NCBI GenBank assembly: GCA_020852835.1 | Contig: JADZAC010000015.1 | Location: 1-64,000 of the forward strand | Direction: 5' to 3' | DNA from: Flavobacteriales bacterium | GTDB taxonomy: Bacteria; Bacteroidota; Bacteroidia; Flavobacteriales_F; PHOS-HE28 | Length of the DNA: 64,000 nt | In this document: positions 18,828-28,748 of the stretch, piece after piece | How the letters are laid out: every line of letters begins with the position of its first letter | Numbering within the stretch: position 1 is the stretch's first letter | The notes under the pieces: generated by a model | What the model was told of the DNA's origin: nothing | What the model saw: the letters and a program-made list of their open reading frames with translations, nothing else | Database searches by the model: none | Position numbers and translations under genes: made by a program

Positions 18828-20023
18828 TTCGGCGGCAGGCCGTGGTAGAAGGCCAGCAGATCTTGGATGATCAAGGTGTTGTTGTGGTACTGGCGTACCA
18901 AGGCCATGGACTGCATGCCGATCTGCTCCGCGCGGATGGGTTCGGCCAGCACGAGGTCGATCTGTTCAATGAACGCCTGGGCCGTGTCCGCCAGCAGGAT
19001 GTTGTGGCCGGGGCTGCAGGGGATGCCTTCGGCGCCCATGGTGGTGCTGATCACGCATTTGCCCATGGCCATGCCCTCGATGATCTTCACGCGCATGCCC
19101 CCGGCGCTGAACAAGGGAACGAGCATCACATGGCGCTGTGCGAGGTAGCGCAGGGCATCGGGCACGCGGCCGGTAACGGTGGTGCCCGGTAGGCGCGTGC
19201 GGATCAGGTCCTTGGGCATGCGTATACCTGCCAAGTGCAATTGGGCCCCGGGGTGTTTCTGGATCACCGAAGGCCATACGTTGCGCAGCAGCCAACGTAT
19301 TCCTTCCTCGTTGGGCAGCCAGTCCATGCTGCCCAGGTGGAAAAAGATGAGCGGCCCCGGCGGCCAGGCGGCCTCGAACTCCGCGGGCCACACGCCGAAG
19401 GGAATGGTGGCGATGGGCGTGCCGCTGCCATGGCTTTCCAGATGCAGGGCATCGGCCGCAGTGATGGCGGCCACGCCGTCCACCTGTTTGAGCACGGCCT
19501 GCTCGTACTGCTTGAGCTGGCGTGCGAGGAACTTGCGGTAGGGGCGCTTGAGGAAGTTGCGCTCACCTTGGGCGATGCGCTCCTGGATCACGTGCTCCAG
19601 GTTGTGCGAGCGCAGCACGATCTTGGCCTTGGAGTAACGGCGCAGGGTGGGGATGTAGGGCGTAACGAAGAGGCTCTCCAGGTGGATGATGTCGAATTCC
19701 TCCTGGGAGAGGAGCTGGATCAGCCGGATGTCCATGTCCGGGGAGAAAAAGCGGCTGATGTTGTAGTTGTCGGCGGTGACCAGGTCGGTGAAGGCGTCCA
19801 CGATGTTGAGCCCGGTGTCCACAAACACGCCTTCAATGGCGGTTTGCGCGCGGTAGTCCTCGGGGATGGAGGCCACCCGGAGGGGATGTTTGGGGGTGCT
19901 GATGCACACCACCTTCACTTGGTGGCCGGCCTCCAACAAGCCTCGGGTGATGTTGTGCATGGCCTTGGCGCCGCCGTCCATCGGCGGGTAAGGCGGCTTA
20001 TTGCACAGCTGGAGGATGCGCAT
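18824..20023 (-). CDS. GT4-family glycosyltransferase
   Basis: About 399 residues. The start at 20023 (MRILQLCNKPPYPPMDGG) gives the normal first strand of the fold; a longer frame to 20074 adds 17 residues with no homology signal. A Gly-rich N-terminal motif and KIIEGMAMGKCVISTTMGAEGI near the C-terminus identify the GT4 type. It overlaps the upstream LptF/G gene by 26 nt and the downstream glycosyltransferase by 4 nt, so the three are probably one transcript. Probably works in sequence with its partner on a surface polysaccharide or glycolipid; substrates unknown. Confidence 0.87.
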   Translation of the reverse strand: MRILQLCNKPPYPPMDGGAKAMHNITRGLLEAGHQVKVVCISTPKHPLRVASIPEDYRAQTAIEGVFVDTGLNIVDAFTDLVTADNYNISRFFSPDMDIRLIQLLSQEEFDIIHLESLFVTPYIPTLRRYSKAKIVLRSHNLEHVIQERIAQGERNFLKRPYRKFLARQLKQYEQAVLKQVDGVAAITAADALHLESHGSGTPIATIPFGVWPAEFEAAWPPGPLIFFHLGSMDWLPNEEGIRWLLRNVWPSVIQKHPGAQLHLAGIRMPKDLIRTRLPGTTVTGRVPDALRYLAQRHVMLVPLFSAGGMRVKIIEGMAMGKCVISTTMGAEGIPCSPGHNILLADTAQAFIEQIDLVLAEPIRAEQIGMQSMALVRQYHNNTLIIQDLLAFYHGLPPK

Positions 20024-21446
20024 GGCGGGGCTTGAAGGTGGAACGGAACCTGCTCCACGCGCGATCATACGCATCGCGGTCGAACAGGGGGCTGTCGGTT
20101 GCTGCTTTCCAGGTGATGAACATGCCGATGGGCAGGAGCACCATGGTGCTGATCCACATGCCGGGCCAAGGGGGGAGAGTTCCCGCCTTCACCATTTGCT
20201 CGGTGGAATAGCTGATGATGTGGAAGACCAGGAAGAAGAGGATGGAGATCACGGCGGGCAGGCCCATGCCGCCCTTGCGGACGATGGCGCCCAGCGGTGC
20301 GCCGATGAAGAAGAACACCACGCAGGCAAAGGCCAGCATGAGCTTGCGGTGCCACTCCACCTGGAATTTGGCGATCTGCTCGCCGCGTTCAGCGCGCTCC
20401 AAGGCCATATGCTCCAATTCATTGATGGCGGCGCGTGCCTTGTCCATGGCCACGGGGTACCATACGGCAGGCTCGGCAGGGGCGGTGCGCAGGGCGCCGC
20501 CGGGCGGGGCCCTGCGGGTGCGCGGCCCTGGATCCGTATTGCGGCGGAAGGGGAACAGGGTGTTGCGGATGTTGCCGTCCTGTTCGGAAGCCCGTTCCCG
20601 CAGGCGGCGCTGCAGGCTGTCCTGCGCATAGTCCAGCTGGCCCAGGGTAAGCATTTTGTAGTGGTCCTTGAACAGGTCTTCATCGGTGCGCTTCATGCCC
20701 AGCCCGGAGAGGTCGATGTGGATTTCTTCGCGTTGGAAGCGGCCTTGCAGCAAGGGCAGGTTGCCGCTGCTGCGGGGGGCGGTGCCGCTTTGCTCGTCAT
20801 AGATGCGGCCATTTTCCAGCACCAGCACCAGGAACCGGTTGTCGGGACTGCGGCCCATGGTGCCTTTCTCGGCGCGGATCACCGTTTTGTTGGCTTGGAA
20901 GGGCTTGCGGTGGTCATAGATGAGCACGTCGCGCAGTTCGCCGCTTTGGTCGTTCTTGCTGCCCACGCGTATGGAAAAGCCGTCGAGCCCGCCTTGGAAC
21001 ACGCCCGGTCGCAGGTTCAATGCGGGCTTGGTGCGGGTAACGTCCCAGAGCAGGCTCTGGAACTTCAGGTTGGCCAGGGGCAGCACGTTGTTGCTGAAGT
21101 AGAAGGAGAAGCAAGCCAGGCCCAGCACGAACACCAGCAGCGGCGCCAGGATCTTGAAGAGGCCCAGTCCGGCGGAACGCATGGGGGTCAGCTCGGAACG
21201 TTCGCCCAAGCCGCCCATGGTCATGATGGAACTGAGCAGCACGGCCAGGGGGAGCACGGCGGGCACGAATGCCGAAGTGGCGAAGGCGATCAGCTTGGCC
21301 AGCACATCCCACGGGAGCCCTTTGCCGATGAGGTCTTCCAGCCATTTCCAAAGCCATTGCATGCTGAACAGGAAGAGCACGATCAGGAACGTGACGAACA
21401 AGGGCCCCCAGTAGGCCCCGATGATCATGCGGTGCAGTCGCTTCAT
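19998..21446 (-). CDS. LptF/LptG-family permease
   Basis: Inner-membrane subunit of the LptB2FG transporter that extracts lipopolysaccharide and feeds it to LptC. The 482-residue protein has the family layout: three N-terminal membrane helices (MIIGAYWGPLFVTFLIVLFLF and the following ones), a large periplasmic beta-jellyroll (about 120-330) and three C-terminal helices (LMLAFACVVFFFIGAPLGAIV onward). A low-complexity Arg/Pro/Ala insertion (about 305-325) lies within the periplasmic domain. F and G cannot be told apart from one copy. It is co-oriented with the START-like gene 64 bp upstream. Confidence 0.9.
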   Translation of the reverse strand: MKRLHRMIIGAYWGPLFVTFLIVLFLFSMQWLWKWLEDLIGKGLPWDVLAKLIAFATSAFVPAVLPLAVLLSSIMTMGGLGERSELTPMRSAGLGLFKILAPLLVFVLGLACFSFYFSNNVLPLANLKFQSLLWDVTRTKPALNLRPGVFQGGLDGFSIRVGSKNDQSGELRDVLIYDHRKPFQANKTVIRAEKGTMGRSPDNRFLVLVLENGRIYDEQSGTAPRSSGNLPLLQGRFQREEIHIDLSGLGMKRTDEDLFKDHYKMLTLGQLDYAQDSLQRRLRERASEQDGNIRNTLFPFRRNTDPGPRTRRAPPGGALRTAPAEPAVWYPVAMDKARAAINELEHMALERAERGEQIAKFQVEWHRKLMLAFACVVFFFIGAPLGAIVRKGGMGLPAVISILFFLVFHIISYSTEQMVKAGTLPPWPGMWISTMVLLPIGMFITWKAATDSPLFDRDAYDRAWSRFRSTFKPRHAHPPAVQ

Positions 21447-21510: not shown

Positions 21511-22578
21511 TCAGGCCCCCAGCACCCGGATCAAGGTGTGGATCTGGGCTTCCCACAAGGCGCGTTCCTCCTCCACATCTTTCGGCCAGGCATGGTCGGT
21601 CACCACCAGGCAGGTCTCATTGGTCATGCTGTCCACTCGGATGCGCAGTTCAAAGAAGGCACCGGGATCTTCCAGCTGGTCTTCGGCCCAACGGAACCGC
21701 ATGTATTCCCCCGGGAACTGGGCAATGCACCGGGCGGCTTCGGTATCATCGCCCCATTTAAAGGTGTACAGCCCGTCGGAGACGTTCACATCATCGCAGA
21801 ACCATTCGCTGAACCCGCTGGGGGTGCTGATCAGTTCGAAGAGCGAGGCCACCGAGGCGTTGAGGTAGAATTCGAGCTGGAAGCGCTGCTTCAACGCGGG
21901 CCTTGCGGGCTGGGGAGGCAATGCTTCCACCGTTTGGCCATGGCCTTGCACCGCGGGCTCCGGCGGCGCAGCAGGCAGCGGGGAAGGGCTTTTAGCGGCG
22001 CCTTTGGGAACCGGGCCGGCCGCTTTCTTGTTTACCGCCTTCTTGATCGCGGGCCTTGGTTTGGCGTTGCTGCCGGGTTTGTCCTTCCCTGCCTTGGCCT
22101 GTGGGGAAGGCGCCTTGGGCGCGGCCCTTTTCAGCAGCGGCTGCTTTTTCGCTGCGGCTTTTTTCTTGGCAGCTGGTGGCTTGGCGATAGATCCTTTGCC
22201 CACGGGCCTCCTTGCCACCAACTTGTTTTTGCCCCCGGGCTTCTTGGTACCGGCCGCTTTCTGCACCACCTTCCTGCCGGGCGGCTTGGTCGCTTTGCCG
22301 CCCTTGGCATTGCCTTTGGCCACCTGTTTTTTGGTCGGGTGATTGCTGTTCTTGCTTACCGGCTTGGCGGCAGGTTTCACGGGTTTTTTCTTTGCAACGG
22401 CTTTCGGTCGCGCCACGGCCTTCACCTGCTTGGCGGGCTTGGCTTTGCGCTCCTTCGCGGGCGGCTTTCCGGTGGCTGCCGGGCGTTTACGGACCTTGGG
22501 CGTGGCGGATGTCTTTGGCGCCCGCCTCTTGGCAGGTGCGGCCTTCTTTGCACGGGATCTTGTAGTAGGTCTCGCCAT
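21511..22578 (-). CDS. START-like domain protein with a histone-H1-like N-terminal tail
   Basis: The last about 125 residues (FQLEFYLNASVASLFELISTP, SGFSEWFCDDVNV, CLVVTDHAWPKDVEEE) match the small START/AHSA1-like protein that Bacteroidota commonly carry near LptF/G. Here it is preceded by about 225 residues made almost only of Lys, Ala, Pro, Arg and Gly (KKAAPAKRRAPK, KKKAAAKKQPLLKRAAPKAP), resembling bacterial histone-H1-like tails. The frame is open and in register through both parts, so the fusion appears real. The tail would be expected to bind nucleic acid. Homologs as I know them are about 130 residues with no such extension. Confidence 0.8.
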   Translation of the reverse strand: MARPTTRSRAKKAAPAKRRAPKTSATPKVRKRPAATGKPPAKERKAKPAKQVKAVARPKAVAKKKPVKPAAKPVSKNSNHPTKKQVAKGNAKGGKATKPPGRKVVQKAAGTKKPGGKNKLVARRPVGKGSIAKPPAAKKKAAAKKQPLLKRAAPKAPSPQAKAGKDKPGSNAKPRPAIKKAVNKKAAGPVPKGAAKSPSPLPAAPPEPAVQGHGQTVEALPPQPARPALKQRFQLEFYLNASVASLFELISTPSGFSEWFCDDVNVSDGLYTFKWGDDTEAARCIAQFPGEYMRFRWAEDQLEDPGAFFELRIRVDSMTNETCLVVTDHAWPKDVEEERALWEAQIHTLIRVLGA

Positions 22579-22694
22579 GTTGTCGTCTGCAAGGCTGATG
22601 GGGTGTGGGGAAAGGTAAGCAGGCAGGCATTTCTTGCAAGGAGAATTTTGGATTTTACAGGCTCGCGCATCGTACTATATTCGCGGCCCGAATT

Positions 22695-22768
22695 GGCGCG
22701 GTAGCTCAGCTGGTTAGAGCGCAGGATTCATAATCCTGAGGTCGAGAGTTCAAGTCTCTCCCGCGCTA
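22695..22768 (+). tRNA. tRNA-Met (anticodon CAT)
   Basis: A complete 74-nt cloverleaf. The acceptor strand GGCGCGG pairs with CCGCGCT (first pair G-U), the D arm is AGCTCAGCTGGTTAGAGC, the anticodon stem CAGGA/TCCTG encloses loop TTCATAA, and the T arm is GAGAG TTCAAGT CTCTC. CCA is not encoded. The CAT anticodon could also belong to a lysidine-modified tRNA-Ile2, but the overall sequence fits elongator tRNA-Met. TATATTCG about 20 bp upstream (near 22675-22682) is a weak -7-like element. Confidence 0.93.
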
Positions 22769-22778
22769 CACCTTTCGC

Positions 22779-26909: not shown

Positions 26910-27128
26910 TTACTTCTTCTTGGCAGCGGCCTTCTTCTTGGGCGCAGCCTTCTTGGCGGCAGCCTTTTTCTTGGGCGCAGCCTTCTTGGCAGCGGCCTTC
27001 TTCTTGGGCGCAGCCTTTTTCGCAGCGGCTTTCTTGGCAGTGGCTACCGTGCGCTTGGCAGGACGGGCCTTGCCTTTGCTACCGGCGGTACGCTTGCCTT
27101 TCTTCGTCTTCATATCACCTTTACCCAT
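26910..27128 (-). CDS. Histone-H1-like DNA-binding protein
   Basis: 72 residues, almost entirely Lys and Ala with Pro, built on a repeated KKAAPKKKAAA unit (three copies) after an N-terminal KTKKGKRTAGSKGKARPAKR. It resembles the Hc1-like and algal-virus-type H1 C-terminal tails found in some bacteria. It should bind DNA without sequence specificity; a nucleoid role is inferred from composition only. The frame starts at 27128, with an alternative ATG at 27113. A good Bacteroidota promoter lies upstream. Similar K/A/P-rich sequence forms the tail of the START-like protein at 21511. Confidence 0.82.
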   Translation of the reverse strand: MGKGDMKTKKGKRTAGSKGKARPAKRTVATAKKAAAKKAAPKKKAAAKKAAPKKKAAAKKAAPKKKAAAKKK

Positions 27129-28469: not shown

Positions 28470-28748
28470 TCACTTCACCTTCTTGCTCAGGTCGGCACCG
28501 GCTTTGAACTTCACCACCTTCTTGGCAGCGATCTTGATCTCTTTGCCGGTTTGGGGGTTGCGTCCCTTGCGGGCGGCGCGCTTGGCAATGCTGAAGGTGC
28601 CGAAGCCGACGAGGGCCACGCGATCACCTTTTTTGAGGGCCTTGGTGGTGTTGTTCACGAAGGCGTCCAGGGCGCGCTTGGCGTCAGCCTTGGAGATCTT
28701 CGCCTCGGCGGCGATGGATTCGATCAGTTCTGCTTTGTTCAGTCCCAT
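28470..28748 (-). CDS. HU-family DNA-binding protein
   Basis: 92 residues, a full-length HU/IHF-family nucleoid protein. The N-terminal helices are [27 protein letters not shown], and the beta arm contains [24 protein letters not shown] with the intercalating proline. The ATG at 28748 is chosen over upstream in-frame extension to 28970, which lacks homology and crosses the promoter. It has its own near-consensus promoter and terminator, so it is probably monocistronic. Confidence 0.95.

Follow-up and report, generated by a model that had tools for sequence, protein, structure and literature searches.

A START_2 protein with an N-terminal histone-H1-like tail in the class Bacteroidia

Histone-H1-like tails rich in lysine, alanine and proline (KAP tails) that tie other modules to the nucleoid are known from PhaF and AlgP. 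PhaF of Pseudomonas is described as a binding module joined to a K/A/P tail that is disordered, histone-like and highly positive and shows non-specific DNA binding (PMC5658603), and AlgP of Pseudomonas aeruginosa as a DNA-binding protein with a 154-amino acid (aa), H1-like, KPAA-rich tail that acts on polyphosphate granules (PMC9239181). In the accounts drawn on here, the KPAA/AAKP tails of both proteins bind DNA and place polyphosphate or PHA granules (PMC9239181, PMC5658603, PMC13052382). A like composition, rich in K, A and P and poor in acidic residues, is found in the Hc1 histone (PF07432) and in eukaryotic linker histone H1. The START_2 domain (PF19569) is represented in the PDB by 2lio (BfR322 of Bacteroides fragilis), and many members of its family, such as those at the named Flavobacteriaceae loci and those of family f39, consist of the bare domain, about 128 aa long.

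Here, we describe a START_2 protein from a Flavobacteriales bacterium that adds a cationic tail of 227 aa to this domain. Its gene lies in the window, by which we mean the whole 64,000-nucleotide stretch of DNA that was analysed (GC content 62%). The initial annotation had proposed one in-frame polypeptide made of an H1-like tail and a START-like domain, a proposal borne out by the 355-aa open reading frame, its Pfam START_2 match and the composition of the tail. The features of the locus are as follows:

21511..22578, minus strand: whole gene of the tailed START_2 protein, 355 aa, with its ATG at 22578 (from Pfam and orthologues of like architecture)
21898..22578, minus strand: N-terminal K/A/P/R-rich, acid-poor, H1-like tail, 227 aa (from composition, stop-free frame and selection)
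21514..21897, minus strand: START_2 (PF19569) domain of START/SRPBCC/AHSA1 fold (from the profile match, AlphaFold2, PDB 2lio and 2m89)
22612..22639, minus strand: promoter-like element TTG-N19-TACCTT of the Bacteroidota -33/-7 type, its end 33 nt upstream of the tail ATG
19998..21446, minus strand: LptF/LptG-type permease gene, downstream of the START_2 gene (from Pfam and synteny)
22695-22769, on the strand opposite to the START_2 gene: tRNA-Met, upstream of that gene

The tail (K22 R7 A21 P17, with D+E 2%) carries a net charge of +61 against -12 for the START_2 domain. It is presumed from this composition to be disordered; a full-length AlphaFold2 model built without an alignment was poor throughout (mean pLDDT 46.7), and the missing tail structure in it proves little. 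Fourteen overlapping [KR][AP][AP] words can be found in the tail, with no regular AAKP/KPAA array discernible by eye. The likeness to PhaF is one of module plus K/A/P tail. In PhaF, the PHA-binding domain is N-terminal and the tail, in which eight AAKP-like repeats are found, is C-terminal, whereas in our protein the tail is N-terminal and START_2 C-terminal; a phasin domain is absent from the protein, as is a PHA synthase from its host genome. AlgP likewise shares the H1-like K/A/P tail, and a polyphosphate kinase is present in the window's genome as well. However, the other part of AlgP is predicted to be helical, is of unknown structure and is not a START fold, and no homology is claimed; the tails of AlgP and PhaF are moreover both C-terminal and repeat-like, and the START_2 tail is N-terminal. 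The resemblance to Hc1 and H1 is one of tail composition, as the START_2 protein matches neither profile and its folded part is START_2, not a winged helix.

Pfam START_2 covers residues 230-355 (E 1.4e-30; 106.2 bits, where the cut-off is 23.6; profile positions 4-126 of 126), and no other Pfam match was found in the 355-aa protein at E <= 0.1, a search that would include phasin, Hc1, linker-histone (winged-helix) and RNA-related domains. An AlphaFold2 model of the domain from 36 sequences (mean pLDDT 95.2) has the START/SRPBCC/AHSA1 helix-grip fold, and PDB 2lio, the same domain by profile, sequence and fold, is matched with E 1e-34 by sequence and E 6.7e-10 in Foldseek. The Aha1 domain protein 2m89, of like fold and low sequence identity, gives a weak profile match (E 7e-4) and the highest row in VIA-align (Z 16.0, rmsd 2.3, 123 aligned, 14% identity), where rows within Z 1 are to be read as tied. 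Aha1, ARO/CYC, PYL and PR-10 proteins all appear in the structure-comparison lists, and no single family stands out. A literature search found no known function for START_2; the domain probably binds a small, hydrophobic ligand or else a partner protein.

START_2 occurs in 342 of 396 genomes of the class Bacteroidia, nearly always as a single copy, and in a phylum-wide sample of 148 genomes all 37 matches fell within the class. One match each was found in 55 of the 58 genomes searched, and the frames from the window's genus were nearly all long. We scored a tail where the extension had a length of at least 40, K+R of at least 22% and D+E of at most 15%; a stricter rule of K of at least 20% drops 7 of 33 same-genus loci, which are less K-rich. 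The search of homologues for the extension, as the initial annotation had suggested, found it in 75 of 155 uncut loci (160 examined less 5 cut by an end), that is, in 33 of 33 from the same genus, at 122-289 aa, and in 42 of 122 from other families, the latter not a frequency since these loci were partly picked for long open frames. Like sequence was seen at 4 further same-genus loci truncated at the end of a contig or stretch, and the START_2 match of G030, 49 residues at a contig end, was kept outside the tail counts. Counting the window's own genus, tailed START_2 was found in 17 of the 55 families and 27 of the 90 genera examined, and the K-rich tails of the 16 further families span 47-420 aa. 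In an unpicked sample of one genome from each of 23 other families, START_2 was present in 21, and 6 of these 21 (G037, G039, G040, G048, G051 and G053) have a K-rich tail of at least 47 aa; 17 of the 21 were scored by tail sequence, and G047, G049, G050 and G054 by their short open frames (127-157 aa). Among 80 named loci, K-rich tails are carried by 6 of the window's genus (L084-L089) and 5 others (L098, L113, L124, L130, L143), and by none of the Flavobacteriaceae loci, which have the bare domain. The tailed protein therefore recurs across the class and is no oddity of the window's genome.

What could such a tail do? On balance, the probable answer is that it would serve as a disordered, non-specific polyanion anchor (for DNA, RNA or polyphosphate) for a domain of START/AHSA1 fold. 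Its binding to polyanions would be independent of sequence, with nucleoid DNA or RNA as the most likely partners and polyphosphate as a possible one, and START_2 would be concentrated or anchored at that site in the way that the modules of PhaF and AlgP are by their KAP tails. Non-specific binding is suggested by a composition kept without conservation of sequence, by the scarcity of acidic and aromatic residues, and by KAP tails on the topoisomerase and the bS31/Thx-like protein described below, each a partner of nucleic acids; disorder in vivo, polyanion binding and anchoring are inferred. More specific roles were considered and rejected. A PHA-granule tether as in PhaF is contradicted by 0 matches to PhaC (PF07167) in a genome that is 99.27% complete. 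A tail standing in for a missing Hc1 histone does not fit the distribution of PF07432, which scores above its cut-off in 8 of the 50 tailed genomes and in 3 of the 30 bare ones (the 3 all of one family) and has 0 matches in the window's genome. Nor is the tail paired with a more acidic domain, the family means of domain net charge being -9.9 for tailed and -11.5 for bare proteins (p 0.066).

The alternative that survives best, although we consider it unlikely, is that not DNA but RNA or the ribosome is the target of the tail, which would make START_2 a translation- or RNA-linked factor. It draws on the other KAP-tailed small protein of the window, a 72-aa product encoded 4 kb from the START_2 gene (26910-27128, minus strand). 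The first 26 aa of this protein resemble 30S ribosomal protein Thx/bS31 (PF17070, E 0.0069, below the cut-off), the remaining 46 aa form a tail of KKAAAKKAAPKKK repeats, and a tailed counterpart is present in 8 of 12 same-genus stretches. However, a short C-terminal K/A/P tail is also found on a DNA enzyme of the same genome (L083/L248, contig C54), which we take from its sequence to be DNA topoisomerase I (TopA), and the START_2 protein has no RNA-related domain by Pfam. A HU-type DNA-binding protein (28470-28745, minus strand; PF00216, E 1.4e-33) is also encoded nearby, so that HU, the KAP-tailed bS31-like protein and tailed START_2 all lie within about 7 kb. A genome-wide habit of adding KAP tails was not found: the patterns KKA[AP]KK and KKA[AP]K gave only TopA as a KAP tail, and they are a weak screen that missed both the START_2 tail and the Thx-like protein. 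A composition screen of about 369 kb of the genome (a 305-kb sample and the window together) found a comparable 60-aa K/A/P window in 5 of 3095 stop-to-stop frames of at least 60 aa; the START_2 tail is among these 5, and one of the four others led to the Thx-like protein.

Alternatively, the tail could be a peripheral membrane anchor on anionic lipids or LPS phosphate; START_2 would then bind lipids and be kept at the inner membrane, close to the LptF/LptG-type permease of the adjacent gene. Lipid binding is common among START folds, and the permease adjoins START_2 in the window and at 21 of 80 named loci. We nonetheless regard a membrane anchor as quite unlikely. The permease is adjacent with or without a tail, and its adjacency hence gives no account of the tail; the Flavobacteriaceae have a different neighbour, an aminotransferase class IV gene directly downstream of START_2; and the tail is nearly free of aromatic and bulky hydrophobic residues, unlike MARCKS, which has a membrane-inserting basic patch. 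Gene order is informative in another respect. The arrangement START_2, LptF/G, glycosyltransferase is common to several tail-less flavobacterial loci, which implies that the tail sits on an orthologous gene and was gained or lost in place.

Returning to the polyanion anchor, substitutions indicate what selection acts on. Codon positions 1/2/3 differ 7/5/25 in the only gapless pair, and third positions are the most divergent in 12 of 12 close pairs, which are partly non-independent. Exchanges between K and R in related tails number 26 against 4 between K and E. For the unsaturated closer pairs, dN/dS is 0.12-0.43 in the tail and 0.00-0.06 in the domain where computable, values for which the protein-guided alignment somewhat lowers dN. 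In pooled composition, the tails (K22.8 R5.6 A24.4 P16.3 E0.9 D0.3) are nearly devoid of aromatics and bulky hydrophobics (F 0.1, Y 0.1, W 0.0, L 1.5%). Identity between same-genus species can be, for example, 45-70% in the tails against 81-98% in the domains, and gap runs divisible by three in DNA alignments number 2 of 8 (L013/L014) and 13 of 25 (another pair), the non-triplet runs being put down to the aligning of low-complexity sequence. Because the tail drifts so fast and so many gap runs are non-triplet, the constraint would be on composition only; as far as sequences can tell, charge and composition of the tail are conserved, and sequence and length are not. In 11 of the 37 same-genus tails (e.g., at loci L011-L019), the short conserved word AVM[MT]G recurs some 18 residues ahead of the domain. 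The wide variation of length (122-289 aa in the genus) and sequence could also be expected of a functionless, slippage-prone, GC-rich 5' extension tolerated before the domain, and a low-complexity codon set does give few stops in some other frames too. Such drift is very unlikely, however, given that the tails of other families are built from a different codon make-up, that acidic residues stay near zero even though K to E is one transition, with the bias toward K/R exchange noted above, and that the third-position excess is joined by retention of the tail at every uncut same-genus locus. The initial annotation had allowed for a fortuitous extension, and this idea fails on the same retention, the stop-free frame and the coding-type substitutions. 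Its other test, that homologues might always lack the extension, is answered by the tails at 33 of 33 uncut same-genus loci and 42 of 122 loci of other families.

Translation of the tail from the upstream ATG is strongly indicated by its frame and by promoter placement. Across the 33 uncut same-genus tails, which together have 6736 codons, stop codons number 0 in the coding frame and 220, 50, 28, 12 and 116 in the other five. A motif TTG-N17-20-TA[CT]nTT lies at most 120 nt from the tail ATG at 32 of 33 same-genus loci and within the 120 nt before the domain at 0 of 33, against a mean of 0.22 of 33 in shuffled sequence. A looser motif in other tailed families was found in 29 of 40 at the tail start and 0 of 40 before the domain; it precedes only 22 of 74 bare START_2 homologues, and its absence thus means little. 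The motif recalls the Bacteroidota promoter consensus TAnnTTTG/TTTG (PMC2483708, PMC7366714), and its -33 part is the less certain, as that part is described as not identifiable in Flavobacterium johnsoniae (PMC7366714). It is because of this placement that a translation start near the domain, the outcome by which the annotation could have fallen, is made unlikely. In-frame GTG codons at residues 210 and 217 and TTG codons at 220 and 229 do lie near the domain, yet the idea that one of them is the true start and the upstream frame spurious is extremely unlikely in light of the promoter-like element at the tail ATG, the coding-type substitutions and the stop-free codons of the tail.

Across families, the tail comes and goes. 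Tailed and bare genera stand side by side in families f22, f27 and f28, and some sister genera have bare START_2. A poorly resolved tree of 122 START_2 domains, drawn without L201, L077 and most f1 and f39 loci, requires 10 changes of tail label, and strongly supported branches force at least 2 of these; this count uses a looser tail rule under which L044 (an upstream ATG, probably no tail) and L192 (acid-mixed) pass as tailed. With so little resolution, gains and losses are indistinguishable, and the tree and gene order together show repeated gain or loss of the tail on an orthologous gene. At some loci, namely L045, L164 and L167 (f20), L078 (f28) and L171 (f27), a short acidic stretch (DDDEP or a similar one; EEDGFDTDP in L171) interrupts the K-rich tail before the START_2 linker. 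The comparisons thus depict a recurrent, fast-drifting, charge-selected module, and it would be dispensable for the core role of the protein because many families carry the bare domain.

The initial annotation knew of no obvious precedent for a ligand-binding fold with such a tail. For the exact pairing this holds, as our literature search found no paper on a tailed START_2; for the tail it does not, in view of PhaF and AlgP. What is new is the combination of a known domain with a known kind of tail, found in no paper. A far bolder extension, which we consider quite improbable, is that START_2 across the Bacteroidia is a ligand-responsive organiser repeatedly wired, by H1-like tails of parallel origin, to the nucleoid or to polyphosphate/RNA condensates, so that one protein would connect a signal derived from membrane or lipid with the organisation of chromosome or condensates. 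More modestly, the tailed orthologues suggest that the site of action may be a polyanion, and tailed and bare START_2 orthologues offer a simple handle for comparison. An orthologous gene that gains or loses an H1-like tail, with selection apparently acting mainly on charge, would also provide a tractable case for the evolution of cationic disordered tails.
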